Part shown: positions 3,095 to 27,172 of the stretch, piece by piece | Layout: each line of letters opens with the position of its first letter | Position numbering within the stretch: position 1 is the stretch's first letter | Program-made: the position numbers and the translations under genes | Notes under the pieces: model-generated | What the model was told of the DNA's origin: nothing | The model's input: the letters and a program-made list of their open reading frames with translations, nothing else | Databases searched by the model: none | From: a virus | Reading direction: 5' to 3' (one strand) | DNA length: 27,172 nucleotides | Virus record (IMG/VR): IMGVR_UViG_3300050821_003048 | Location: 1 to 27,172 of that record

Positions 3095-4725
3095 TGTACC
3101 CCGCTCCACCCTTAGCGCCCTTCATACCACGCCGCCACCAAACGGAAGGCGTGCAAGCACTCGTTGCTTACGAAGGGCGCTTCAGTGTCGCCGAGGCGTC
3201 CGTAGCTTCCGGCAAAAGCGCCATGCTCGGAATGCTGGCGATCCACTACAGTCAGTTCGGTCGCGTACTGATCGTTGCGCACAACAAAGAATTAGTGGTC
3301 CAAAATGCCGAAGCCTGCAAACAACTTGGGTGTGTCCCTGGCGTCTGTTCAGCATCCATCAGCGTCAACGCCTTCGCCCGGGTTACAGTCGGAACCATCG
3401 GAACAATCGTTAGCAGACTCCACCTTTTCCGTGACGTGGTGGCGATTCTTGTGGACGAAGTTCACCGGACGCCACCCGCTAAGTCGTCACAATACCGGCG
3501 GCTGTTCGATAAGCTCGCGCAAACCAAAGTCCACGGGCTGACCGCAACCCCATTCCGCTCGGACGGCACCGGCGATCTTAACCGTACATTCGGCCCGGTA
3601 GTTTTCAAGTACACTTTTCTGGACGCACTTCGTGACGGCTATGTCAAGCCGCTGGTCCCGGTGGACGCTGGCGAGGACGAGACGATCGAAGTTGACGGAC
3701 TGAAAACCGTTGCCGGCGATTTCGATATGGACGAAATGGCGCCCCGGGCGATCAAGCTTTCTCCAAGCCACGCGAAAACCATCTTGGACGTAATGCAGAA
3801 GTACGGTCGTCGTCGCGTACTGGTGTTTTGCTGCAACATCGAGCACGTCGATAGGATAGAAGCCGAGCTGCAAAAACTTGGCGCCTCTGTTGTCGGTGTG
3901 CACTCGCGCTCGATCACGGGCAAGCGCGATAAAGCCGTGGACGCATTCAAAGCCGGACGCGCGGAGATCCTCGTATCGTGCAATATGTTCACGACGGGCT
4001 TTAACGTCATCGACATCGATTATATGGCGTTCTGCCGCGCCACCAAATCTGCCGTGCTGTACGCGCAGTCGCTAGGACGCGGCGCCCGCATAACACCGTA
4101 CGCCGCTAACTGCCTCGTGTCGGACTTCGGCGGCAACATTCAGCGGCACGGCACCCTTGATGCCGTAATGGCAGCGCCAGGTCGATTGCTGGAATGCGAA
4201 GCCGACGGTTGCGGCGCTGAATGGGAAACTTGGGAAAACGGCAAGACGTGCCCGAAGTGCCAAACGCTGCACCGGAGCGCGCCAAAGTGCAAAAGTTGCG
4301 GCGATCAGTTTGATCCGCATTTTCACGGAATGCGCTGCCCGCACTGTCATCAACAACAATCCGAAATCAAGACGTGCGCAGCCTGCGAAGAGACGTACGC
4401 GGCATTTTTGCACCCGCTTTGCCCGTTCTGCGGTTTCGACAATACCGTAGTCATGGCGGCCGGCAAAGATTTGAAAATGCGCGGCGGTGCGAATGAAGCC
4501 GTCAGCATCCGTAAAATAGTAGAAAACAGTCCTTGGCAGGAAATCGTCAGCCCGCCGGTTAAGAATCCTTCGGGCGGCTGGACTTTAACAACGCGGTATA
4601 CGACGGCACTCTGGAACTACGAAGTGCTGCCCGACGTGCATTCAGTGTACCTCAAGCGAGCCACCAACGGGCGCTACATCGCGGCCGGACTTTACGATAG
4701 GCAGGGCGTGATCCATCAGAAATAG
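3094..4725 (+). CDS. DEAD/DEAH-type SF2 helicase with C-terminal zinc ribbons
   Basis: The 543-residue product should unwind or translocate on nucleic acid with ATP. Motifs in order: Q-motif-like RRHQTEGVQAL, motif I ASVASGKS (Lys about 41; the usual leading Gly is Ala), motif II LVDEVHR (about 120, DExH type), motif III LTATPFR (about 150), and motif VI QSLGRGARI (about 330). After the helicase core come three CxxC-type pairs of knuckles between about residues 368 and 450 (CPKC, CKSCG, CPHCH, CAAC, CPFCG), that is, a stack of zinc ribbons, and then a C-terminal domain (TTRYTTALWNYEVLPDVHSV). The core resembles the RecB-less UvsW/DEAD phage helicases. Its exact role (recombination, replication restart or branch migration) is not determinable here. 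Confidence 0.9.
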   Translation: MYPAPPLAPFIPRRHQTEGVQALVAYEGRFSVAEASVASGKSAMLGMLAIHYSQFGRVLIVAHNKELVVQNAEACKQLGCVPGVCSASISVNAFARVTVGTIGTIVSRLHLFRDVVAILVDEVHRTPPAKSSQYRRLFDKLAQTKVHGLTATPFRSDGTGDLNRTFGPVVFKYTFLDALRDGYVKPLVPVDAGEDETIEVDGLKTVAGDFDMDEMAPRAIKLSPSHAKTILDVMQKYGRRRVLVFCCNIEHVDRIEAELQKLGASVVGVHSRSITGKRDKAVDAFKAGRAEILVSCNMFTTGFNVIDIDYMAFCRATKSAVLYAQSLGRGARITPYAANCLVSDFGGNIQRHGTLDAVMAAPGRLLECEADGCGAEWETWENGKTCPKCQTLHRSAPKCKSCGDQFDPHFHGMRCPHCHQQQSEIKTCAACEETYAAFLHPLCPFCGFDNTVVMAAGKDLKMRGGANEAVSIRKIVENSPWQEIVSPPVKNPSGGWTLTTRYTTALWNYEVLPDVHSVYLKRATNGRYIAAGLYDRQGVIHQK

Positions 4726-4734
4726 GAGAGTGAA

Positions 4735-4944
4735 ATGGCGCAAGGCGAATTTACGAAAGAGGAAGCGACTGCGAGTCTCGACGGGCTTTCTGAGATGTTC
4801 AAGGCGATTCCCAAAAACAAACAAGGAAACTTTTTTGGGCATCTAAACGACATCGCACTATTCCTTGAAGCGGCGAAGCGAGCCGCGCCAGCCGAAAAAC
4901 AAAAAGGACCTTGTACGGAAAATAGGGTGTTGACGGCGCCCTAA
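4735..4944 (+). CDS. Hypothetical protein, 69 aa
   Basis: A good ribosome-binding site (AGGAGAG) precedes ATG 4735, which lies nine bases after the helicase stop. The product is MAQGEFTKEEATASLDGLSE, then MFKAIPKNKQGNFFGHLNDI and ALFLEAAKRAAPAEK; it looks like a helical bundle with an amphipathic C-terminal helix. No family is recognised. The end of the gene overlaps the start of a sigma70-like promoter, so it is probably the last gene of the first transcription segment. Confidence 0.7.
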   Translation: MAQGEFTKEEATASLDGLSEMFKAIPKNKQGNFFGHLNDIALFLEAAKRAAPAEKQKGPCTENRVLTAP

Positions 4945-4958
4945 ATCCTTGTCATACA
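4930..4958 (+). promoter_or_regulatory. Sigma70-like promoter containing the TGTCATACA element
   Basis: TTGACG (4930-4935), a 17-base spacer and CATACA (4953-4958) precede the 141-residue protein gene. The -10 hexamer lies inside TGTCATACA, an element that recurs at 13934-13942 and twice at 20697-20718. Confidence 0.55.
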
Positions 4959-4987
4959 TTTGCGTCATCAACCACGGGAGACACGAA

Positions 4988-5413
4988 ATGAAGATCATAG
5001 TCGAGTTTGACAACGAGGCAGAGTTCAAGGCACGCATCAAAAACCCGCGCGGCGGCAAGGACGACGACGGTCCGCAGGTCGGCAGCGCGCAGGCCCCGGC
5101 GCCCTTGATGCCGCCTCAGCAACAGCAACCTGCGTTCAACCCCAACCCGCCGGCCGCGTTCACGCCGCCGCAGGGCGGCTTCCCTGGGGCGCCCGTCGCT
5201 GACCCGGTTGTTGCCGGCCTCGTCCAGCGCATCGTCGCCCGCATTGACGGAGCCATCGCTAACGGACAGCCTGCCGACGCGGTGTTGAGTTGGTTTCGCG
5301 GCCAAGCGGGAGCCGAAGCAGTCGCCGCCACGATGGACCAAATCAAAACTGTGTTTTTGCCTAAGCTGACAGTTCCGGCTTTGGAAAACATAGCCAAATT
5401 AATGAACGCGTAA
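4988..5413 (+). CDS. Hypothetical protein with Pro/Gly/Phe-rich linker, 141 aa
   Basis: I chose ATG 4988 behind GGGAGAC, about 23 bases after the predicted transcription start; upstream in-frame codons lie in the promoter. Three parts are visible: a short N-terminal beta-rich piece (MKIIVEFDNEAEFKARIKNP), a disordered linker of Pro, Gln, Gly and Phe (residues about 22-72, with FTPPQGGF), and a C-terminal helical domain (VVAGLVQRIVARIDGAIANG onward, ending LENIAKLMNA). The linker peptide FTPPxGGF also occurs in the C-terminal tail of the ssDNA-binding protein at 7612-8388. I do not recognise the family. Confidence 0.75.
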   Translation: MKIIVEFDNEAEFKARIKNPRGGKDDDGPQVGSAQAPAPLMPPQQQQPAFNPNPPAAFTPPQGGFPGAPVADPVVAGLVQRIVARIDGAIANGQPADAVLSWFRGQAGAEAVAATMDQIKTVFLPKLTVPALENIAKLMNA

Positions 5414-5436
5414 TTAGGGCGCACCACAGTGTCCTT

Positions 5437-5477
5437 GGAGGCGGCGACGGGCACCGTAAGTGCTGTTAGCCGCCTCC
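5437..5477 (+). promoter_or_regulatory. Nested hairpin in the 5414-5499 gap
   Basis: A perfect 9-bp stem GGAGGCGGC / GCCGCCTCC (5437-5445 with 5469-5477) encloses a smaller perfect stem GCAC / GTGC (5451-5454 with 5460-5463). There is no T-run after it, so it is not a standard rho-independent terminator. It sits 22 bases before the next ATG and may be an RNA processing site, an attenuator or a small structured RNA. Confidence 0.5.
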
Positions 5478-5499
5478 TAAACCTCAAAAGGTCCGCACG

Positions 5500-5736
5500 A
5501 TGCTTCGCGCTCATGCAAACATGCCAATCGATGAATTCATCGCGCAGTTGCGTACTTACGTCATTGCGCTCGGACTGAGTACTCAAGTCGTGGACTGCGT
5601 TGATCGACTCGCGGACGCATACGAGGTTGAGGATCGGCGTGCATTAGAGTTGCAAGAATCAGAAGAAGAGGGTGAAAAATGCGGGCGCGAAAGTATGCGA
5701 AACGAAATCTTAGGAGCCGTAAAACACGTGGCTTGA
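5500..5736 (+). CDS. Hypothetical acidic protein, 78 aa
   Basis: ATG 5500 follows AAAAGGT and the nested hairpin. The product MLRAHANMPIDEFIAQLRTY is helical in its first half (IALGLSTQVVDCVDRLADAY) and very acidic in the second (EVEDRRALELQESEEEGEK), ending with a short helix. There is no recognised domain. A following 17-codon ORF at 5747-5800 could be a leader or chance; I do not call it. Confidence 0.65.
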   Translation: MLRAHANMPIDEFIAQLRTYVIALGLSTQVVDCVDRLADAYEVEDRRALELQESEEEGEKCGRESMRNEILGAVKHVA

Positions 5737-5799
5737 CCGGCAAGACATGCCACCACTTTTGAAAGACGAACTTATTGAGTTTATAGAGGACGTTGTTTG

Positions 5800-6777
5800 A
5801 TGGCCCATTCAATCTTCGCGCCATCATCCGCAGCTACGTGGCTCGAATGCTCTTTCAGCGCACGCAACAGCGTACCCGAGGCACCGAAGCCGTTGAAAAC
5901 GCAGCTCGCCGCCGATGAGGGCACACGCGTACACGCATTGCTGGCGGCGTCTTTTACGGATGCAGATGCGGCAGAGGGTGACACGGCTGAAGATACGATT
6001 GCACTCGGAATGGCCTTCATACGTCAGCTAGAGCCCGGCGAACTGCACGCGGAATTGAAAGTTGAACTAGCGTACGAATGCGGTGGCACGACTGACGTAT
6101 TTAACGACACGCCGTATATCGCCACCGTACTTGATTTGAAAAACGGCAAGTGGGACGTTGATGCGTACCACAACAAGCAAATGCTGACATACGCCGCTGC
6201 GCTGCTCAACGAATGCGAAGCCGAGTGGTGGCGCCTTGTGATTTTCCAGCCCAACGGCTTGGACGAAACGCCTTTCAAGCAATGGGTCGCGCATCGTAGC
6301 GAAGTCGCGGCGCACCGCGATCGCGTGCTACGACAGATCGCTGACCGCAGTGCGCCGCGCCCCGGCCCGTGGTGCCGCTGGTGCAACGCGTTTCAGCAAT
6401 GCCCCGCGATGGCGGCCGACGCCGGCTTCGTCATGGGTGCCATGTCACGCGCTCCCGAGAGTCTGACCAGCGAGGAACTTGTACGGCTGTTGCGAATCAT
6501 CCGGGCGCTGGGCGATGTGAAGGCCGTCTATGATGACGCATTGACCACGAAGTTAAAGCTAGGCCATGCGGCGCCGGGTGCCGCACTGAAGCCAGCTCGC
6601 GCTTTTCGAGCTTGGAATGACCAAGAGCAGGCCGCCAAGGTGCTGTACGAAAGTTTCGGTTTTAGGGGCGTGAAACCGCTGTCGCCAGCGCAGGCTGAAA
6701 AGCTCGGGCCGGCTGGAAAGCAGTACGCAACTGTCGGGGCGCACAAGCCTCAAGGTGAAATGAAGGCATCGTATTAA
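5800..6777 (+). CDS. DUF2800 family PD-(D/E)XK nuclease (RecB/Cas4-like)
   Basis: I chose ATG 5800 (TGATG context, AGAGGA upstream); a TTG one codon earlier is less likely. The 325-residue protein begins HSIFAPSSAATWLECSFSAR with an early ADEGTRVHALL helix. The catalytic core is visible as GGTTDVF (Asp) and then VLDLKNGK, the DxK of the RecB-like fold, near residues 90-112, followed by NKQMLTYAAAL. Cysteines in PWCRWCNAFQQCP near residue 190-200 could ligate an Fe-S or Zn centre as in Cas4/AddB-type nucleases. In phages this family sits beside DUF2815 and DNA polymerase genes, as here, and probably acts in recombination or end processing. Confidence 0.85.
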   Translation: MAHSIFAPSSAATWLECSFSARNSVPEAPKPLKTQLAADEGTRVHALLAASFTDADAAEGDTAEDTIALGMAFIRQLEPGELHAELKVELAYECGGTTDVFNDTPYIATVLDLKNGKWDVDAYHNKQMLTYAAALLNECEAEWWRLVIFQPNGLDETPFKQWVAHRSEVAAHRDRVLRQIADRSAPRPGPWCRWCNAFQQCPAMAADAGFVMGAMSRAPESLTSEELVRLLRIIRALGDVKAVYDDALTTKLKLGHAAPGAALKPARAFRAWNDQEQAAKVLYESFGFRGVKPLSPAQAEKLGPAGKQYATVGAHKPQGEMKASY

Positions 6778-10383: not shown

Positions 10384-11783
10384 TGCAAGACACGTACGAA
10401 GATTTTCTAATTCGAAAGTCGGCGATGCCCGTCCTGTCGGGAATATCGCGCGACTTAAAGCTGCCGGACAAGCTGCGCCCTTTTCAGCGTGACATCGTTA
10501 CTTGGGGCCTGCGACAAGGCCGCGCTGCGGTATTCGCCGGAACCGGCCTCGGCAAGACGTTTCAGCAGCTATCGTGGGCGCAGGAAATTCAGCACGACAC
10601 TTGGCGCCGGATACTGGTCTTGGCACCGCTCGCGGTCGCGCAGCAAACCGTGCAAGAGGCTAAAAAATTTAATATTGATTCGGTCGAGTACGCCCCTGAT
10701 CGCGCTTCGATCAAATCAAACATTGTCGTTACGAACTACGATCGCATTGACAACTTCGATCCTGCGGACTTCACTGGCATTGTGCTCGACGAGTCCAGCA
10801 TCATCAAAGCGCATGACAGCAAGACGCGAGCGAAGCTGATCGAATTTACGCGTGATATTCCCTTCCGGCTGCCGTGTACGGCCACGCCCGCCCCGAACGA
10901 TTACGTCGAGTTAGGCAACCATGCGGAGTTTCTTGGCGTATGCAGCGCTAAGGAAATGCTGGCGACATGGTTTGTCCACAACGGCTCGCTGAAAGCTACG
11001 AGCGTCAAAAATCACGATGCCAAGCTGAGAGGCAAAGTTACTGCGGAATGGCGTCTCAAAGGCCATGCCGAGCAGGAGTTCTGGGCGTGGCTGTCATCGT
11101 GGTCCGTCATGTTGCGGCACCCGAACGAGTTGGGTTACGACGAGCCTGGATACGACCTGCCGCCGTTGCATAAGCATTTCATCACAGTGCCGTCCGACTT
11201 GCCTGTTGCGCACACACTGTCCGAGCGGCTGCGGGCGCGACGCGATAGCACGGCCGATCGCGTACGGGCGGCGGCGACGCTAGTCAACATGCAGCCGGAT
11301 CGGCCGTGGCTTGTGTGGTGCAACTCCAATCTGGAATCCGAAATGCTGACGGCTGCGATTGCTGGCGCCGTCGAAGTGCGCGGCAGCCATCCGGCCGAGC
11401 TGAAATCGGAACGCCTGATGGGCTTCGCCAACGGCGCCGTGCGCGCACTCGTCAGTAAGCCGTCGATCGCTGGATGGGGCATGAATTTTCAGCGGTGTGC
11501 CGACATGGTTTTTGTCGGTCTCAATGACAGTTTCGAGCAGCTGTTCCAGGCTATCCGGCGTTGCTGGCGTTTTGGGCAGACACAAGACGTAAATGCATAC
11601 TTCATCGCGTCGACAGCAGAGGGTGCCGTTGTCAGCAACCTAGCCGCCAAGGAAGCCGCTGCCGATCGCATGGCGGACGAAATGTCAAAGCATACGCGTA
11701 CGCTGATGACGCGAACGCTACACGGCATCCGCACGCTTACGCCGCACAAAAACAATATGGAGGTTCCTTCATGGCTGAGGTAA
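10380..11783 (+). CDS. SNF2-like SF2 helicase
   Basis: I chose ATG 10380, which overlaps the polymerase stop as ATGA; a longer upstream frame only shadows the polymerase gene. Motifs: LRPFQRDIVTWGLRQGRAAV, motif I GTGLGKT (about 58), motif II LDESSIIK (about 138), motif III CTATPAPND (about 167), and motif VI QAIRRCWRFGQ (about 390). These define a compact Swi2/Snf2-type DNA translocase of about 467 residues, common in phages next to DNA polymerase and a methyltransferase. It probably remodels or unwinds DNA during replication or recombination. The C-terminus overlaps the next gene by 13 bases and carries that gene's ribosome-binding site. Confidence 0.92.
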   Translation: MMQDTYEDFLIRKSAMPVLSGISRDLKLPDKLRPFQRDIVTWGLRQGRAAVFAGTGLGKTFQQLSWAQEIQHDTWRRILVLAPLAVAQQTVQEAKKFNIDSVEYAPDRASIKSNIVVTNYDRIDNFDPADFTGIVLDESSIIKAHDSKTRAKLIEFTRDIPFRLPCTATPAPNDYVELGNHAEFLGVCSAKEMLATWFVHNGSLKATSVKNHDAKLRGKVTAEWRLKGHAEQEFWAWLSSWSVMLRHPNELGYDEPGYDLPPLHKHFITVPSDLPVAHTLSERLRARRDSTADRVRAAATLVNMQPDRPWLVWCNSNLESEMLTAAIAGAVEVRGSHPAELKSERLMGFANGAVRALVSKPSIAGWGMNFQRCADMVFVGLNDSFEQLFQAIRRCWRFGQTQDVNAYFIASTAEGAVVSNLAAKEAAADRMADEMSKHTRTLMTRTLHGIRTLTPHKNNMEVPSWLR

Positions 11784-12757
11784 TCGATCAAGCGTCCGGC
11801 CCGAACTGGCACCTGTGGAACGGCGACTGCGTTGCCGTAGCGCGCGGGCTGCCGAATGAATCCGTACATTACACGATATACAGTCCGCCGTTCATTTCGC
11901 TATACACGTTTTCGGACGATCCACGCGACATGAGCAATTGCCGCGAGGATAGCGATTTCTGGCGCCACTATGAGTTTCTGATTGCGGAGGTCTATCGCGT
12001 CACCAAGCCCGGTCGGCTTGTGTCTATCCACTGCATGAACCTACCAACGTCCAAGCTGCGGGACGGGTTTATTGGGCTGCGAGACTTCCGAGGCGACATC
12101 ATCAAGGCGCATCAGAAGGTCGGATTTTACTACCATTCGGAAGTGTGCATCCGAAAGGATCCTGTGTCCGCAATGCAGCGCACGAAGGCGATCGGGTTGT
12201 TGCACAAGCAAATCGTCAAGGACTCTAGTTTGTCGCGCATGGCGATCCCTGATTACATCGTGACTATGCGCAAGCCCGGTGACAATCAGGAGCGCATCGC
12301 AGGGCAGTTTGATGCGTACTACGGTTCGGAAACGACGCCAGACGGCACACTGCCAAGTCGGGAGTGGAACGAAGACGAAGAAAAGATGGTCCCGTGCATC
12401 GCAGCCCCCGGAACTAAACAGTACAGCATCGCAGTGTGGCAACGCTACGCCGAGGCGGTGTGGGCTGACATTGCGCAAGGTGACGTACTATCCCGTAAGG
12501 AAGCACGCGAAGAGGCCGACGAAGCGCACATATCACCGCTGCAGCTCACGCCAATCAGACGCTGCCTCGAACTGTGGAGCAACCCCGGCGACACCGTATT
12601 CTCTCCGTTCGCTGGCATCGGTTCTGAACTGTACGTGTCACTGCAGATGGGGCGCCGCGCGATCGGTGCGGAGCTGAAGCCGTCCTATTGGCGGCAAGCC
12701 ATACAGAATTGTGAGCGCGCCGCGATGCCGCCAAAAATGCCGTGGGAATCCCAATAA
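11771..12757 (+). CDS. N4/N6 DNA methyltransferase
   Basis: I chose ATG 11771, behind GGAGG nine bases upstream; earlier in-frame codons shadow the helicase. The amino-methyltransferase motifs are permuted, as in the beta class: catalytic SPPF (about 37-40) near the N-terminus and the AdoMet-binding FSPFAGIGSELYVSL (about 276-288) near the C-terminus. The protein should methylate adenine N6 or cytosine N4. Its 328-residue length is normal for the family. It ends PKMPWESQ, again with a Pro-Trp-Glu peptide. With the Dcm-like gene upstream, the phage carries two DNA methylation activities, consistent with evasion of host restriction. Confidence 0.92.
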   Translation: MAEVIDQASGPNWHLWNGDCVAVARGLPNESVHYTIYSPPFISLYTFSDDPRDMSNCREDSDFWRHYEFLIAEVYRVTKPGRLVSIHCMNLPTSKLRDGFIGLRDFRGDIIKAHQKVGFYYHSEVCIRKDPVSAMQRTKAIGLLHKQIVKDSSLSRMAIPDYIVTMRKPGDNQERIAGQFDAYYGSETTPDGTLPSREWNEDEEKMVPCIAAPGTKQYSIAVWQRYAEAVWADIAQGDVLSRKEAREEADEAHISPLQLTPIRRCLELWSNPGDTVFSPFAGIGSELYVSLQMGRRAIGAELKPSYWRQAIQNCERAAMPPKMPWESQ

Positions 12758-13962: not shown

Positions 13963-14169
13963 ATGAGTACGGAACGGAAGACCGTCATGATATCGGGCAG
14001 GCTGCCTGCGGCCCTCGTGGAGCGCTTGGACTACGTTACCCGCAACATTGACAGTGAGACCATAAAGAACCGCTCTGCGGCGCTCCGGGAGGCCCTGGAG
14101 GCGTGGCTGCCGGGCCGTGAGGATCGGTTAAGGGAGCTGGGCATTCTGGCTGCGAAGGCGCGCAAGTAA
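13963..14169 (+). CDS. Ribbon-helix-helix type regulator, 68 aa
   Basis: I chose ATG 13963; the frame is open far upstream but that region shadows the ejection gene on the other strand. The product MSTERKTVMISGRLPAALVE starts with a short strand (TVMISGRL) followed by two helices (PAALVERLDYVTRN and NRSAALREALEAWL). That is the Arc/MetJ-type pattern used for DNA binding as a dimer. The C-terminus is basic (ILAAKARK). No Shine-Dalgarno sequence is visible, and the predicted transcript leader is only about 15 bases. It probably represses its own promoter or a neighbouring one; the palindrome just upstream is the natural candidate operator. Confidence 0.6.
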   Translation: MSTERKTVMISGRLPAALVERLDYVTRNIDSETIKNRSAALREALEAWLPGREDRLRELGILAAKARK

Positions 14170-14195
14170 CGGGCCTTGAGCGAGGGACTTCGATG
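14169..14195 (+). repeat. Leader repeat, copy 1 (with 26662-26688)
   Basis: The 27-base stretch including the ATG at 14193 matches 26662-26688 at 24 of 27 positions. Shared parts are ACGGGCCTT, AGCGAGGGACTT and the ATG. It includes the ribosome-binding site GAGGGA of both genes. Confidence 0.85.
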
Positions 14196-14705
14196 GGCAA
14201 GCGACGAGATGGGCGCCTTCCTACGATGGTCAGCACGGAATCGCTGGCGCGGCTCGATAGCAAGCCGAGCAGCGAACTCGCGGCCATGCGCGCGGACCTT
14301 GGGAGCCTCATGCACGTCCACGGCTCATTTGTGAACCGCTTCCGTGTTGAGGCAGACGCGATTACTGCCATCCTTCATTCACGCGACCGTCCCTACTTTG
14401 AGGTCAGCGACCATGCGGTCGTGCGCTGGCTTGAGAAGGTCAAGGGCTTCGATATGAATGCACTACGGCAGGAGATCGCGGCCGAGGCCAAGGCCGCCAA
14501 GGAAAGTGGCGAAGGCGCCATCTGCCGCGCGAAGGGCGATGCGGTCGCCTACACCAAGGACAAGGTTACGTTCATCGTCGCTCAGCGGAACAGCATCGTG
14601 ACCGTCGTATTTGGCGACTACCTAAATCCGAATGGAGGAGGGCGGTCGGGACCGATCTTCGCCGCCCAAGTATTTCCGGCCCGCGCTCATACGGAACAAC
14701 CGTGA
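14193..14705 (+). CDS. Hypothetical phage protein, 170 aa
   Basis: GAGGGA six bases before ATG 14193 is a clear ribosome-binding site. The first 60 residues are a basic then helical segment (MGKRRDGRLPTMVSTESLAR, ELAAMRADLGSLMHVHGSF). A compact domain follows from about residue 66: YFEVSDHAVVRWLEKVKGFD, MNALRQEIAAEAKAAKESGE, then DKVTFIVAQRNSIVTVVF. This 'DHA..R.LE' domain occurs in other phage hypothetical proteins from memory, but I know no function. The end, PARAHTEQP, shares codons with the unrelated gene at the right window edge. It overlaps the VRR-NUC gene by 4 bases. Confidence 0.75.
   Translation: MGKRRDGRLPTMVSTESLARLDSKPSSELAAMRADLGSLMHVHGSFVNRFRVEADAITAILHSRDRPYFEVSDHAVVRWLEKVKGFDMNALRQEIAAEAKAAKESGEGAICRAKGDAVAYTKDKVTFIVAQRNSIVTVVFGDYLNPNGGGRSGPIFAAQVFPARAHTEQP
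14680..14696 (+). repeat. C-terminal codon repeat, copy 1 (with 27146-27162)
   Basis: These 17 bases, CCCGCGCTCATACGGAA, are identical to 27146-27162 and are read in the same frame in both genes (Arg-Ala-His-Thr-Glu). Confidence 0.85.
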
Positions 14706-15079
14706 CAAGAAAACCCACTAGAAAGGCGCCCAAAGCCAAAGGGCCGTCCGAAAACGAAATCCATGTCAAGGCGTGGGCCTGGGTCCAAAAAGCGCATCCC
14801 GAGCTGCTGATTTTCCACATCGCCAACGAACGTAAGGCCCATGTTCAGTACCACGTCAAAATGAAGCGCAAAGGCGTCTTAGCCGGCGTGGCGGACTTCC
14901 TCGCGTTTCCGATTGGCGGTCGCAAGCTCGCGATCGAACTCAAAGACGATAAAGGTACGCAGGACGCGGATCAGATCAAGTTTCAGCGACGTTGGGAGCG
15001 CGCAGGCGGTGCGTATTTTGTTGTGCGTACGCTGGCGGACTTTCAGGTTACCGTCGATTGCGCAGTGATGTTCGGCTAA
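14702..15079 (+). CDS. VRR-NUC domain nuclease
   Basis: GTG 14702 overlaps the previous stop (GTGA). The 125-residue protein has a basic N-terminus and then the VRR-NUC core of the PD-(D/E)XK fold: ENEIHVKAWAWVQKAHPELL, GVLAGVADFLAFPIGGRKLA with the catalytic Asp, and IELKDDKGTQDADQIKFQRR with the ExK pair, ending AYFVVRTLADFQ. Phage stand-alone VRR-NUC proteins are thought to cut branched or damaged DNA, acting with the helicase and polymerase genes. Its stop converges on the fibre-like gene with a 4-base overlap. Confidence 0.92.
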   Translation: MTRKPTRKAPKAKGPSENEIHVKAWAWVQKAHPELLIFHIANERKAHVQYHVKMKRKGVLAGVADFLAFPIGGRKLAIELKDDKGTQDADQIKFQRRWERAGGAYFVVRTLADFQVTVDCAVMFG

Positions 15080-15745: not shown

Positions 15746-17185
15746 CTATGTACCTGCCGACACGTTTGCGAACATTTCATCGATCGTAAACGGAGCTTGC
15801 GTGCCGCTGTACTGCAAGCGGAACTGTCGCCGCCGCCCCGTGCCGAAGTTGCGGCCAATCGCACGTTGCGTGCCGGGCTGCGGCATCGTGATTTGGCGGA
15901 CGCCGTACCACGTAGCGGCTTTGTCCACTGACCAATCGAGCTGAAAATTTCCGGCTGCCGGCCCCATGGACGAAGTCACGTCAATTGAATTGTACGTCTG
16001 CCGCGTCTCTTCGCTGCCGAGCCAAGGCGTGACTATGGTGCGCTGTAGCGTACCAGCCGGCTCCGTGTTGTCGTTTATGTTCACGGTGCATATCTGGCCC
16101 GTGTCCAGCCCGACGTACGTGACGCCGCCGCTGAATTCCGTAGCGCAGCGCCCCGCGTGATCAAGTCGGCCGCCGGGCGTCTGCCGATAAGACCACACGC
16201 CAGTCGCGCCGCACAGTTCGAGCGTCCACTGGCCTGGCAGTGTCAGCACGTAGAAGTCGCCGCCGCCCTGTCCGTATGCGTACGCCGTCAAAGTCGCCAG
16301 CGTCGCCGCCGTGAGCTGTTGCAAAAGCAAATCAATCCATGGCGGCGATACCGGCTGACCAGTCTGCCCAGTACAAAGCCATATGCGGCGATCAGTGCCC
16401 ACAAACATGATTATGTCACGCAGCACGGCGAGCGACAGGCGCGCGGCCAGCCCTACGGAGTAGAGCGAATTCGGGTAGGCTGTGAACGCGAAGTCGGCTT
16501 GCCCGCCCGGGTCGTACCATTGTTCGAGCGAGCGGGAGCCAAGAGGCCATAAAACAAGCCCGGACACCGCCAAATCGACAACGCGATCGGCACGAGCTTC
16601 CTTCGTGGCAAAGCTGTTCGGCAGCACATCAGCCGGCGCCAGTGGTTGCGAGCTATACATTTTGGCGTCTTGCTGGGCATAGAAATTCGACGCGGCGGAC
16701 CACACCGCTATGTTGTTCAGCTCCGCAACAGCAGACGGATCGAAATTAATGCTGGCGTCAAAGCCGGCGTTGACGACGCCCGCAGTCGTCGCTGTGTAGC
16801 CAGTTCCGTACTCTGCAACGTTATTGGTGTTCGCATTCGACGCGATGCAGAGTGCCGTGCGATCTTCGGCAAAACGGATAACCGGCTGTTGTGCGTTTAC
16901 GGCGACGAAACCCGCCAGCGTCGGCGCGTTGGTCTGTACGTCGTAATAAATTGAACCGTCTGCGTGCCCGCTCCACACTGTTCGCAGAGCCTGCCCAATG
17001 GCGACGCACGGTGCGGCTGTTGGCTGGCAAACCTGCGTCAACCCCGGTGCGCCAACAAGACGCGCTCTGCCGGACTTGCCTTCCTTTTGCTCGCGCGGCA
17101 CGACGCGGACATTGATAAGCTTCCCGGCCCCTTCGTCCAAATTCAGAGGATCTTGGAAAGAACCGAGGATGTCGATTACGGGCAT
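15746..17185 (-). CDS. P22 gp10-like packaged-DNA stabilisation (neck hub) protein
   Basis: I chose the ATG at 17185, one base after the gp4-like stop (TAG-C-ATG); a TTG five codons earlier is less likely. The 479-residue length fits P22 gp10 (about 470). The repeated beta-propeller-like strands and the segments FQDPLNLDEGAGKLINVRVV, LGSRSLEQWYDPGGQADFAF, VGTDRRIWLC and GGGDFYVLTLPGQWTLEL are characteristic of this head-closure hub. It sits on the neck below the portal and gp4-like adaptor and keeps packaged DNA in. The gene order gp4-like then gp10-like matches P22. The call is by pattern and context. Confidence 0.8.
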   Translation of the reverse strand: MPVIDILGSFQDPLNLDEGAGKLINVRVVPREQKEGKSGRARLVGAPGLTQVCQPTAAPCVAIGQALRTVWSGHADGSIYYDVQTNAPTLAGFVAVNAQQPVIRFAEDRTALCIASNANTNNVAEYGTGYTATTAGVVNAGFDASINFDPSAVAELNNIAVWSAASNFYAQQDAKMYSSQPLAPADVLPNSFATKEARADRVVDLAVSGLVLWPLGSRSLEQWYDPGGQADFAFTAYPNSLYSVGLAARLSLAVLRDIIMFVGTDRRIWLCTGQTGQPVSPPWIDLLLQQLTAATLATLTAYAYGQGGGDFYVLTLPGQWTLELCGATGVWSYRQTPGGRLDHAGRCATEFSGGVTYVGLDTGQICTVNINDNTEPAGTLQRTIVTPWLGSEETRQTYNSIDVTSSMGPAAGNFQLDWSVDKAATWYGVRQITMPQPGTQRAIGRNFGTGRRRQFRLQYSGTQAPFTIDEMFANVSAGT

Positions 17186-17186
17186 G

Positions 17187-17873
17187 CTAGTTTCTAACAA
17201 ACCGGAGCCATTGCTGACCCCTCGCGTAGTCCCGCCAGCGCGCGTTGACGCGTTCGGCGTCCATGACGATCGGGTCTGTCTGGCTCAGCGTACGCCCATA
17301 CGAGCCCATGATGCGGCGCCCGAGCAGTAGCGTGGCGTCGTGTATCCCTTCCGGCGGCAGTGCAACCACGTCGCTACCATCCGCTGCGGAAATCAAAGCG
17401 AGCCGGCCGCCGTACTCGATCAGCGCATTCGCAGGCGCGCGGGGCGGCTGCCACGCGGTAATCAGCACCGAGCCATCCGCCTGCCGTTCCTGGTGCCATT
17501 TGGTGACGATGCCGGGGTACGTCGTGCGTACCACGTCGGCAATCGGCGCCATGCGCGTTTCACGATTGACGGTAAGGTTTATGTCATTCACCCAAATGGC
17601 GCGCACGGCCACTGCGTCAGCTTGCACCAGATAGCTGGGGCTGCCGTTGCCGACTACGAACGTGTAAACCTGTCCGTTCGTGCCGGGCGGCAGTACGGCC
17701 GCTTGGCGCTTGATGAGGTACTGGCAAGCGCCGTCTGCTTGCTCGGCGCGAAGCAAGTCATTCAAAATTGTGACGTTGTTCGCGATATCCGTAGCTGTCG
17801 GAGCCTCAGTTGCGTCCGTGATGCCGAACAGATGCAGCGCACTCGTGATGATCTGGGCAGCCGTTACGGTCAT
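17187..17873 (-). CDS. P22 gp4-like head-tail adaptor
   Basis: I chose the ATG at 17873, which overlaps the preceding gene's stop as ATGA; an upstream in-frame start lies inside that gene. The 228-residue product begins MTVTAAQIITSALHLFGITD and continues NNVTILNDLLRAEQADGACQ, the helical adaptor pattern of P22 gp4 and relatives, followed by a beta-rich insertion (QVYTFVVGNGSPSYLVQADA, AVRAIWVNDINLTVNR) and a C-terminal helix (RVNARWRDYARGQQWLRF). It should bind below the portal and connect to the gp10-like hub. It is longer than P22 gp4 (166), so the beta insertion is extra. Confidence 0.72.
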   Translation of the reverse strand: MTVTAAQIITSALHLFGITDATEAPTATDIANNVTILNDLLRAEQADGACQYLIKRQAAVLPPGTNGQVYTFVVGNGSPSYLVQADAVAVRAIWVNDINLTVNRETRMAPIADVVRTTYPGIVTKWHQERQADGSVLITAWQPPRAPANALIEYGGRLALISAADGSDVVALPPEGIHDATLLLGRRIMGSYGRTLSQTDPIVMDAERVNARWRDYARGQQWLRFVRN

Positions 17874-22768: not shown

Positions 22769-23237
22769 CTTCGCCATACCGCACGGCCACGTACGGCCGA
22801 CGCGAGACGTAATCGTCATTCGTCTACCGATGCCGCCCAAAATGATCGGCGGGATTCACGTCCCCGATGTAGTCCGCGACATGGCGCAGCACAACGTCAT
22901 GGCAGGCCGGATCGTGTCCATGGGGCCGCTTGCATTCGTTTACAAAGATGCAGAAGGCAGCTTGACGCGGGAGCCCGTACAAGTTGGCGATTGGGTTACT
23001 ATCCGCCCGTTCGCCGGCACGATGGTGCAAGGCGGTAAACTTCAGGCGAGCAGCGGATGGCGCTACGTTTCCAGCTTTCAAGATGTGCTGGCCGTCATCC
23101 CAGCCGACAAAATGCCGGACCCAGCAACGCTGCTATGGGACGACGAAGACGCAATCAAATCAGTTGCGCCTGCACACACTTCGGAAGACTTCGGCGGCAA
23201 ACCCCGCGAACGCACGGTGATCCATGCCCGATCTTAA
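22746..23237 (+). CDS. GroES-like co-chaperonin
   Basis: The 163-residue protein has the Cpn10 beta-barrel pattern: HVRPTRDVIVIRLPMPPKMI GGIHVPDVVRDMAQHNVMAG, the mobile-loop-like region with GGIHVP, then GRIVSMGPLAFVYKDAEGSL, VGDWVTIRPFAGTMVQGGKL and GWRYVSSFQDVLAVIPADKM. Bacterial GroES is about 97 residues; this one has a C-terminal tail of about 50 residues. A phage GroES-like protein usually binds the host GroEL ring to help fold the capsid protein. It lies between portal and scaffold-like genes, which fits. Confidence 0.75.
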   Translation: MSNIGVHDFAIPHGHVRPTRDVIVIRLPMPPKMIGGIHVPDVVRDMAQHNVMAGRIVSMGPLAFVYKDAEGSLTREPVQVGDWVTIRPFAGTMVQGGKLQASSGWRYVSSFQDVLAVIPADKMPDPATLLWDDEDAIKSVAPAHTSEDFGGKPRERTVIHARS

Positions 23238-23244
23238 CGTGATG
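23216..23244 (+). repeat. 29-bp direct repeat, copy 1 (with 23492-23520)
   Basis: These 29 bases begin GGTGATCCATGCCC and end TTAACGTGATG. They are identical to 23492-23520. The repeat contains the ATG and first seven codons (MPDLNVM) of two consecutive genes. Confidence 0.95.
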
Positions 23245-23496
23245 GTAGTTGTCGCGCTGGTACTGCTGTCCTTCGCCGGGCCAGTGAACGCGCAATCGTA
23301 CACAGCTCCTGATGGCGTGAACAAGTGCATCGCCGTGACCAACGGCACGACGACACAATGCACGCTGCTCGGCGTTAGTTCGATCAACGCCTTACCCTCT
23401 TCCGCAATCATTCTGAAATGCGAAGATGGCTACGAGATCGTCATTGCCGCCCAAGGCCCGATGTGCGCCCGCGAGCTTAAACCCCCCATAAGGTGA
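23224..23496 (+). CDS. Secreted small Cys-containing protein, 90 aa (cassette)
   Basis: The start ATG lies in the direct repeat. After MPDLNVM comes a hydrophobic run (VVVALVLLSFAGPVNA) and a likely signal-peptidase site before QSYTAPD (after about residue 23). The mature part of about 67 residues has four Cys (35, 46, 66, 81), suggesting two disulfides. No family is recognised. The n-region lacks the usual positive charges, because the first seven codons come from the repeat; an internal ATG at 23242 could be the native start. The gene is bracketed by the 29-bp repeat, looks like a moron insertion, and could act in the periplasm, for example in superinfection exclusion. Confidence 0.7.
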   Translation: MPDLNVMVVVALVLLSFAGPVNAQSYTAPDGVNKCIAVTNGTTTQCTLLGVSSINALPSSAIILKCEDGYEIVIAAQGPMCARELKPPIR

Positions 23497-23520
23497 TCCA
23501 TGCCCGATCTTAACGTGATG
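23492..23520 (+). repeat. 29-bp direct repeat, copy 2 (with 23216-23244)
   Basis: Identical to copy 1 over 29 bases; flanking bases differ on both sides. It contains the ATG at 23500 and seven codons of the following gene. Confidence 0.95.
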
Positions 23521-25261: not shown

Positions 25262-25990
25262 ATGAAGCGACTGTTTGCTTTGCTGATCGGGACCGCGCTG
25301 TGCGGCCCCGTGATGGCGGCTGATCTGACGCTGCGAACCAAGGCCCCGGCCTACACCCCTCCCGTCTGCACCGCGGGCGCGGCGATGACCACGACGATGG
25401 CGGCGGTCTTGCCGTCGTGCTCGGGCTTCTACGGCGGCTTCTCGTTGCAGGGCCTTGGATCGAACCTCGACATTCTCGGTTCCGGCATCAACAACTCGGT
25501 GTTCGCGGGCGGCGGCATCGTGGGCGGCGTCGCCGGCTATCAGTTCTGGAACGGCCAGTTCTTCTTTGCGGGCGAGGCCAATCTAGGTCTGGACGTACAG
25601 ACCAACGGAGTGAACAGCGCGGCCGGCTTCAAGAACTGGGACGCCGGCATTTTCGCCAAGGCGGGCATCGGCTTGTCCAATCTGATCGGCATTGGGCAGC
25701 CCGGCACGGTTGGCACCGGCACGCCGTCTCAGGGCATCAATCTAGCGATCATCCCCGGCACGTCGCTCATGTCGCCTTATCTGGTAATTGGGGAATCGTT
25801 CAAGAATGGCAATCAAGGCTGGACGATGGGGGCCGGCACCGAGTTTATTCTGGCGCAAGGCTGGAACCTCGACGTGTACTACCACCACATCAACTGGAAC
25901 AGCACGACGGCGGTTGCGATTCCCGGCGCCACGATCATGTCCACGACGCCTGAGAATCGGGTGGGTGTGGCGTTCATAAAGATGTTCTGA
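25262..25990 (+). CDS. Outer-membrane beta-barrel protein (Omp25/RopB-like)
   Basis: The product has a clean signal peptide (MKRLFALLIGTALCGPVMAA, cleavage near residue 19) followed by ADLTLRTKAPAYTPP, typical of Rhizobiales Omp25/Omp31-type porin-like proteins. The remaining roughly 220 residues alternate in short strands with Gly and aromatic ends (GFYGGFSLQGLGSN, GGVAGYQFWNGQFFFAGEAN) and end in FIKMF, a terminal Phe as in outer-membrane barrels. It would sit in the host outer membrane and may block superinfection, as Lom-type phage proteins may. AGGA precedes ATG 25262. The 78-base gap upstream probably has its own promoter (I see no clear -35/-10). Likely transferred from a host. Confidence 0.85.
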   Translation: MKRLFALLIGTALCGPVMAADLTLRTKAPAYTPPVCTAGAAMTTTMAAVLPSCSGFYGGFSLQGLGSNLDILGSGINNSVFAGGGIVGGVAGYQFWNGQFFFAGEANLGLDVQTNGVNSAAGFKNWDAGIFAKAGIGLSNLIGIGQPGTVGTGTPSQGINLAIIPGTSLMSPYLVIGESFKNGNQGWTMGAGTEFILAQGWNLDVYYHHINWNSTTAVAIPGATIMSTTPENRVGVAFIKMF

Positions 25991-26300: not shown

Positions 26301-26329
26301 GGGGCCTCAGAAACGAGGCCCCACTTTTT
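26301..26329 (+). terminator. Strong rho-independent terminator
   Basis: A perfect 8-bp stem GGGGCCTC / GAGGCCCC (26301-26308 with 26315-26322), a six-base loop AGAAAC, then ACTTTTTATTT. It ends the rightward structural operon; the RHH gene on - ends at 26328, so it may also act leftward. Confidence 0.9.
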
Positions 26330-26576
26330 ATTTAATCTTTTCGATGGCCTCGATAACCAAGCTCGTGACCGTACGCCGGGTTTTCTTCGCCTTGGCGATG
26401 ATCTTGGTTTTCTCCGCTTTGGTCAGCCGCATGTCTAGCCGTTCCGAACGCGCGACGGTATCGGCTTTCCTCTTTTTGACCTTGGCCTTAGCGGCCTTCC
26501 GCCGGGCACGCGAGCGGATGGCGTCCGGCGTCATGCTCGGCGTAGGCGGCGTTTTCAGAGGTCCAGTAGCTTCCAT
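26328..26576 (-). CDS. Ribbon-helix-helix type regulator, 82 aa
   Basis: I chose the ATG at 26576 with AGGA nine bases upstream; the frame is open further upstream, through the promoter region. The N-terminus is Pro-rich then strongly basic (RSRARRKAAKAKVKKRKA), and the C-terminal 45 residues, RLDMRLTKAEKTKIIAKAKK TRRTVTSLVIEAIEKI, follow the strand-helix-helix pattern of Arc-type repressors, with the 'MRLT..EK..I...A....RTVTSLV.EAI' signature. It is a likely DNA-binding repressor. The divergent promoter region in front, with repeated CGTACA sites, is the obvious target. Confidence 0.7.
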   Translation of the reverse strand: MEATGPLKTPPTPSMTPDAIRSRARRKAAKAKVKKRKADTVARSERLDMRLTKAEKTKIIAKAKKTRRTVTSLVIEAIEKIK

Positions 26577-26586
26577 GGCTTGTGAT

Positions 26587-26634
26587 CCTGTACGGTTGAC
26601 AGTGGCAAGCCTATAACGTACATTGTCGTACAGG
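26587..26634. promoter_or_regulatory. Operator-like inverted and direct repeats at the divergent promoters
   Basis: CCTGTACG (26587-26594) and CGTACAGG (26627-26634) are a perfect 8-bp inverted repeat. CGTACA also occurs at 26617-26622, 10 bases (one helical turn) from the copy at 26627-26632. These flank and overlap both promoters here and would suit binding by an RHH repressor. Confidence 0.5.
26596..26624 (+). promoter_or_regulatory. Rightward sigma70-like promoter, interlocked with 26610-26638
   Basis: TTGACA (26596-26601), a 17-base spacer and TACATT (26619-26624) precede the right-edge gene. Confidence 0.6.
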
Positions 26635-26638
26635 TCAA
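26610..26638 (-). promoter_or_regulatory. Leftward sigma70-like promoter for the RHH gene
   Basis: On the - strand, TTGACC (26633-26638), a 17-base spacer and TATAGG (26610-26615). It overlaps the rightward promoter by 15 bases, so both cannot be occupied together. Confidence 0.6.
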
Positions 26639-26661
26639 CACAGGTACGGATAGGCACGCAT

Positions 26662-26688
26662 ACGGGCCTTAAGCGAGGGACTTTTATG
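26662..26688 (+). repeat. Leader repeat, copy 2 (with 14169-14195)
   Basis: Matches copy 1 at 24 of 27 positions, including the ribosome-binding site GAGGGA and the ATG. Confidence 0.85.
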
Positions 26689-27172
26689 ACCAAAGAACGC
26701 CACTACCCTGCCCTGGAATTGCAGAGTCACCAAGACGACAATCGCGGCAATGGCAGCATGAGTGCCGCATACTATGCCGTGGAGGTCCGCAACAATTCCG
26801 ATATGCCGAAGGTGGTTGCCGAGAATAACTCTCCAATCCCCTTCGTGATCGATAATTACTGGCGGCAAATCCCGATCGGGCCGAGCGCGTCAGCATGGGG
26901 AGCAAACATCCCTATGCGGTCCTGGGATAGAGATGCTGCCGAGCATGGACTGGTTTCCTACGTCGCGGCGGAAGCGCATCGCTGGGCTTTTCTGGCAATG
27001 CTGGAAGCTCATTACATAGGCGGCGCGCTCTGCATCGAGACGCGGCTTGTCCAAGTCAAGTTCGAAAAGAACTACTCGATGAAGGAGGTTGGAGTTTCGG
27101 AGCCACAAACGTTCGGATGGGGACCGAAGGCCGAGAACCTCAAGCCCCGCGCTCATACGGAAAAAGCTAGCT
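26686..27172 (+). CDS. Hypothetical protein, 3' truncated at the window edge
   Basis: ATG 26686 with GAGGGA six bases upstream starts a frame that runs to the right edge (162 codons, no stop). The product begins MTKERHYPALELQSHQDDNR and continues with strand and helix patterns: AAYYAVEVRNNSDMPKVVAE, FVIDNYWRQIPIGPSASAWG, SYVAAEAHRWAFLAMLEAHY, then KPRAHTEKAS at the edge. No family is recognised. Its leader and its last codons match those of the unrelated gene at 14193-14705. A sigma70-like promoter lies about 60 bases upstream. Confidence 0.75.
   Translation, partial: MTKERHYPALELQSHQDDNRGNGSMSAAYYAVEVRNNSDMPKVVAENNSPIPFVIDNYWRQIPIGPSASAWGANIPMRSWDRDAAEHGLVSYVAAEAHRWAFLAMLEAHYIGGALCIETRLVQVKFEKNYSMKEVGVSEPQTFGWGPKAENLKPRAHTEKAS
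27146..27162 (+). repeat. C-terminal codon repeat, copy 2 (with 14680-14696)
   Basis: Identical over 17 bases to 14680-14696 and read in the same frame (Arg-Ala-His-Thr-Glu). Confidence 0.85.

Follow-up and report, generated by a model that had tools for sequence, protein, structure and literature searches.

Unrelated single genes between the same two short borders in two phages with unrelated backbones

Introduction

How do two genes with unrelated bodies come to carry the same short sequences at both ends within one phage? The stretch analysed here (the window) spans an entire IMG/VR record, 27172 bases long, and its 3' edge truncates the second of the two genes. We describe the shared ends, the insertion sites in comparison with close relatives, a second phage with the same pair of ends, and the explanations that may account for them. 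Throughout, the gene between the two ends is called the payload, the start-side border LEADER and the stop-side border END.

Results

Two window genes share both ends

Payload gene 1 (14193..14705, plus strand) encodes 170 aa, and payload gene 2 (26686..27171, plus strand) encodes at least 162 aa before it runs off the record end. LEADER copy 1 (14169..14192, plus strand), a start-side border with a ribosome-binding region, precedes the first gene; LEADER copy 2 (26662..26685, plus strand) precedes the second. Compared over 27 nt, 14169-14195 (ACGGGCCTTGAGCGAGGGACTTCGATG) and 26662-26688 (ACGGGCCTTAAGCGAGGGACTTTTATG) are identical at 24 of 27 positions. On the stop side, END copy 1 (14680..14696, plus strand) and END copy 2 (27146..27162, plus strand) both read CCCGCGCTCATACGGAA (17/17 identical) and lie in the same frame, translated R-A-H-T-E. 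The stop codon of payload gene 2 is located beyond 27172, so its distance from END may differ from that in payload gene 1. No third copy of LEADER or END is found in the window at up to 3 mismatches, and 100 dinucleotide-preserving shuffles yield mean match numbers of 0.00 for LEADER and 0.12 for END.

The preliminary description of this locus had claimed a shared leader and shared C-terminal codons around unrelated bodies, and the comparison of the two proteins bears this out. Their best BLASTP alignment (E 0.041, 11/38 identities) represents no real similarity, and BLASTP, Pfam, PHROGs, NCBIfam, PADLOC and PDB sequence searches find nothing common to both. Residues 64-133 of payload 1 match PHROG 8252, a family of unknown function, and payload 2 has no family match. 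Hidden homology was considered and rejected, as the protein sequence searches return no common match. AlphaFold models of the two proteins, computed without an alignment, have mean pLDDT values of 46.5 and 30.0, which makes them poor models that are not decisive on fold.

Payload gene 1 occupies a gene boundary that is empty in eight close relatives

Alignment of the portal protein yields 15 close relatives (L026-L040) with portal identities of 53-86%. Payload gene 1 is inserted between two backbone genes on the plus strand, an RHH (CopG-like) gene (13963..14169; Pfam RHH_1 E 0.0019, below the cut-off; homologues in 10 of the 15 relatives), the stop codon of which directly abuts LEADER 1, and a nuclease or Holliday-junction-resolvase-like gene (14702..15079; PHROG 824, 93 and 5702). 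In eight relatives (L040, L028, L038, L036, L032, L034, L035 and L039) the site is empty, and the RHH and nuclease genes adjoin or overlap; as L035 and L039 do not differ here, the number of independent observations is 7 or 8. L029 instead has a 76-aa gene in the interval and L033 one for a 57-aa membrane peptide, each with another leader. Aligned with L029, the window is identical at 48 of 60 positions up to the RHH stop and at 15 of 35 across the next 30 bases, and similarity returns at 14694 with GAACAAC.G, covering the last three bases of END.

Homologues of payload 1 or payload 2 are not found in the 15 close relatives; the only payload match, marginal and 32 residues long, is in the distant L107. 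The absence of both payloads from the closest relatives is most simply read as gain in the window lineage. The cassette exchange proposed in the preliminary description is partly borne out. Comparison with the relatives shows gain of whole units, including their ends, at gene boundaries. A swap of payloads in place between fixed ends, as proposed there, is not seen, as the two ends are kept at either site in 0 of the 15 relatives.

Payload gene 2 follows a conserved divergent region

The second payload lies divergent from another RHH-like backbone gene (26328..26576, minus strand; NikA-like Pfam match E 0.004, below the cut-off; homologues in 8 relatives). The intergenic region between them (26571..26650) contains promoter-like hexamers, and its conservation in L029 and L040 extends as far as CAGGTCAACACAGGTACGGA. 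Similarity to these two relatives stops 11 bases before LEADER 2: upstream of the break, 65/85 and 65/81 positions are identical (L029 and L040, respectively), and downstream 18/44 and 20/46. Following the conserved region, L029 and L040 each carry a different gene, and other relatives carry none. The preliminary description had noted an RHH-type gene close to each payload; a link between them is not supported, as both RHH genes are conserved backbone in the relatives.

The region 26571-26650 is a putative promoter region. Arrangements of the TTGAC-17-TA type occur in it on either strand, as do repeats of GTAC.GGTCAAC/GTTGAC next to the RHH gene; the region is conserved in relatives and looks like an RHH operator. 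A candidate END remnant upstream of LEADER 2 (blastn E 0.13) was rejected, as this stretch belongs to the promoter region conserved in the relatives.

A second phage carries the same pair of ends

LEADER and END were scanned independently over 2.9 million viral contigs. LEADER matches 1 contig and END 6, and a single contig, G001, is common to both, with the elements within about 510 bp. G001 (IMGVR_UViG_3300020118_000165; coordinates as L013) is a 71.7-kb phage whose backbone is unrelated to that of the window, except for a distant helicase match (23% identity). Relatives of G001 found through the helicase are at most 40% identical, too distant to reveal an empty site.

On the minus strand of G001, two tandem units, gA followed by gB, each run from LEADER through a gene to END. 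In the first unit, LEADER (17561-17582, motif match) precedes gA (17466-17558), which encodes a 31-aa membrane peptide, and END (17456-17471, 14/16 identical) lies in a different reading frame and includes the gA stop codon. In the second, LEADER (17430-17448, motif match) precedes gB (17061-17426), which encodes a 122-aa protein, and END is located at 17076-17091 (16/16 identical). A search of related phage genomes for the two ends, with differing payloads between them as the supporting outcome, had been proposed in the preliminary description, and G001 supplies two further payloads. Full-length homology of the two window proteins, the outcome named there as contrary to exchange, is not found, and the payloads now also include a 31-aa membrane peptide.

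The remaining contigs matched by either pattern contain one element only, in unrelated contexts, and both ends together are not found in any further viral or genome contig. Looser leader patterns in the viral contigs and an exact leader scan of the genome contigs return chance matches only, G001 aside. A search of phages and plasmids with a 50-nt END+LEADER composite gives nothing relevant; its weak match in cyanophage S-2L (E 1) was discarded, as it sits within an annotated gene.

Apparent conservation of the borders as DNA around unrelated payloads

In the window and G001, each of the four LEADER-bearing genes has END at its 3' end. Neither element occurs elsewhere in the window phage or G001 at up to 2 mismatches (simulated expectation 0.00-0.05). 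The consensus of the four LEADER copies is ACGGGCCTT[GA]AGCGAGGGA, and that of the four END copies is CCGC[GA]CT[CG]ATACGGAA. The evidence thus comprises four units in two phages, with one payload truncated. Chance or an assembly artefact, for which one may point to the shortness of the sequences and the metagenomic origin of the contigs, is scarcely credible: the expected number is zero, the pair recurs in an unrelated contig, and the flanks match relatives.

The payloads are without detectable mutual similarity and comprise 170 aa (with the PHROG 8252 domain), at least 162 aa, a 31-aa membrane peptide and 122 aa. END is translated R-A-H-T-E in three of the four units, so some selection on a C-terminal peptide is conceivable. 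The END of gA, however, has another frame and contains the stop, which argues for conservation of the ends at the DNA level. Around unrelated payloads, and in two phages whose backbones are unrelated too, the borders stay the same; they thus appear to be conserved as DNA and to outlast the payload.

Duplication and divergence would offer another origin, in which an ancestral gene was copied to several places until the ends alone remained recognizable. The in-frame R-A-H-T-E in 3/4 copies agrees with it, as do weakly similar first codons, M-x-K-x-R in the window pair and MRW in the G001 pair; the common MRW... start of gA and gB fits tandem duplication for that pair. As an account of the four units it is nevertheless very improbable, as the proteins show no similarity and range in length from 31 to at least 162 aa, the gA END stands in another frame and includes the stop, and third-position identity in the ends speaks against conservation at the protein level.

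LEADER as a regulatory signal

LEADER spans the ribosome-binding region, lies 3-5 nt from the start codon and is directly upstream of unrelated starts in 4/4 copies. These positions raise the possibility of a start-associated regulatory signal, with LEADER serving selected early genes and END a matching 3' signal, so that the repeats reflect co-regulation and not moved DNA. The SAS/ESAS of cluster K mycobacteriophages provide a precedent: related phages carry these short repeats directly before the starts of genes that are unrelated to one another (PMC3203893). LEADER resembles SAS in standing immediately upstream of unrelated starts. SAS, however, are numerous, kept in the lineage and devoid of a paired 3' element, whereas LEADER occurs in only two copies per genome and is paired with END. 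A regulatory signal should persist in the lineage, yet LEADER is absent at up to 3 mismatches from the whole records of all 15 close relatives, and such a signal leaves the paired END and the insertion breakpoints unexplained. We therefore regard a regulatory signal as unlikely.

Comparison with mobile elements

Alternatively, the units may be non-autonomous mobile elements, whose ends are recognized in trans by a specific recombinase or transposase that moves or swaps single-gene cassettes. The two ends are defined and different, the insertion sites differ, the G001 units are arranged in tandem, and LEADER and END show a weak inverted match, TGAGCGnGG (shuffle P about 0.007). This match is not kept, however, but is broken without compensation in window LEADER copy 2 and in the gA END, and no target-site duplication is visible at the first site. 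Compared with integron gene cassettes, no attC-like core is apparent by eye and a Phage_integrase family protein is found in 0 of 11 records; the enzyme could be the host's.

The MPME of mycobacteriophages holds a single ORF. It is an ultra-small insertion of a few hundred bp that is absent in close relatives (PMC3029335), and the units resemble it as small one-ORF insertions missing from close relatives. MPME, however, is one conserved sequence with inverted repeats, whereas here the payload differs each time and is not a conserved element protein. We consider the mobile-element reading improbable.

Discussion

The two window genes are probably, though by no means securely, promoterless single-gene accessory insertions, a moron-like cargo, that belong to one cassette family and spread by recombination at the borders. 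Each unit would consist of LEADER (about 19-22 nt, with the ribosome-binding region), a payload ORF and END (about 16 nt, over the last codons or the stop). By inspection, the unit shows no promoter or terminator of its own: LEADER begins at the upstream stop, END overlaps the last codons, and the downstream gene follows immediately. A promoterless gene that arrives with both borders would be placed within a transcribed region, after the stop of one gene and before the start of another. Because the insertion lies exactly at a gene boundary of an existing transcription unit, the new gene would use its own leader and leave the neighbours intact, the borders supplying a ribosome-binding leader and a harmless end. 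Recurring as they do around other payloads, and in an unrelated phage as well, the borders may act as short homology for further exchange. Phages that meet in one host would exchange units by annealing or double-strand-break repair, carried out by phage recombinases of which the RecE/RecT-like pair of G001 is an example.

We take recombination at the shared borders as the most likely mechanism, and infer the role of the borders as homology arms and the acting enzyme. G001 encodes RecT (above the cut-off) and a RecE-like DUF3799 nuclease, and the window encodes a RecB-like DUF2800/PDDEXK nuclease and an Enc34-type ssDNA-binding protein, so that suitable enzymes are at hand in at least one partner. 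No RecT match is present in the window record or its relatives, some of which are incomplete records. At 16-22 bp, the shared borders are short by the standards of ordinary homologous recombination, which counts against the mechanism. G001 also encodes a GcrA-domain protein, and the outer-membrane beta-barrel gene of the window is of an alphaproteobacterial type; together they suggest that the two phages have related hosts.

Several known systems share parts of this arrangement. A moron is an extra gene that separates two neighbours which directly adjoin in related phages, and typically carries its own promoter and terminator (PMC3029335). Payload 1 likewise lies between genes contiguous in relatives (8 without an intervening gene, 2 with other genes). 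Unlike morons, the units have no evident promoter or terminator, but a leader and END, with the same borders around unrelated payloads. For lambdoid phages, short conserved boundary sequences have been proposed to guide recombination, as cited in PMC3029335 and PMC6466182, although such sequences are not findable at most mosaic junctions (PMC3029335). LEADER and END, common to the window and G001, are similar in being short DNA at module borders, but here they lie on both sides of a single gene in phages with otherwise unrelated backbones. Repeated intergenic sequences of T4-like phages, the PeSLs, have been proposed to mediate gene shuffling (PMC4503421). PeSLs combine an early promoter with a stem-loop terminator and occur at high density, whereas there are two copies per genome here and neither feature is visible by inspection of LEADER and END. 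The units differ from morons, lambdoid boundaries, PeSLs and SAS alike in that a single gene has a conserved element at either side, and that the payloads, like the phages carrying them, are unrelated.

A bolder reading would see in LEADER and END the ends by which a so far undescribed recombination system recognizes promoterless single-gene cassettes, whatever their payload, and moves them between unrelated phages. The hosts would probably be Alphaproteobacteria, and the system would be a viral equivalent of gene cassettes. We consider this reading unlikely.

Border-guided insertion as favoured here touches an old question, whether the joints of mosaic phage genomes, which frequently coincide with gene borders, arise from short conserved borders or from random joining followed by selection. 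Since the data include the insert, its empty counterpart in relatives, the two borders and another, unrelated phage with these borders around other payloads, border-guided exchange becomes directly testable. The 16-19-nt end pair (ACGGGCCTTRAGCGAGGGA with CCGCRCTSATACGGAA within 2 kb) can serve as a search key for more small accessory genes, and small accessory phage genes often counter host defences.

Other observations in these genomes

A 29-nt perfect direct repeat (23216-23244 and 23492-23520 of the window) surrounds an inserted 90-aa gene (23224-23496) with a signal-peptide-like start, which separates groES from the gene after it. In L029 these two neighbours overlap, stop with start, at the very sequence of the 29-nt repeat. 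The insertion thus duplicated the overlap and leaves both neighbours intact, and the new gene uses a copied ribosome-binding site and first 7 codons. Other exact repeats in the relatives and G001 were dismissed as coding repeats, palindromes or resemblances of ribosome-binding sites.

Several early proteins end in similar C-terminal tips (FPWS, EEFPWE, KMPWESQ, KMPWEA and LFPWNAP), encoded at 1-876, 877-1179 and 11528-12757 of the window, 1921-2925 of L040 and 2251-2841 of L029. They could serve as a common docking motif of the kind found on SSB tails. The outer-membrane beta-barrel gene of the window (25262-25990) is porin-like. L040 (14435-15241) and L029 (14232-15041) contain a membrane-protein-like ORF of similar length at the same site, for which tblastn gives no match to the porin-like gene, and the site is a possible location of host-surface cargo. 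In G001, the portal protein (4249-6315) carries a C-terminal Acb1 (anti-CBASS) domain within a single reading frame.
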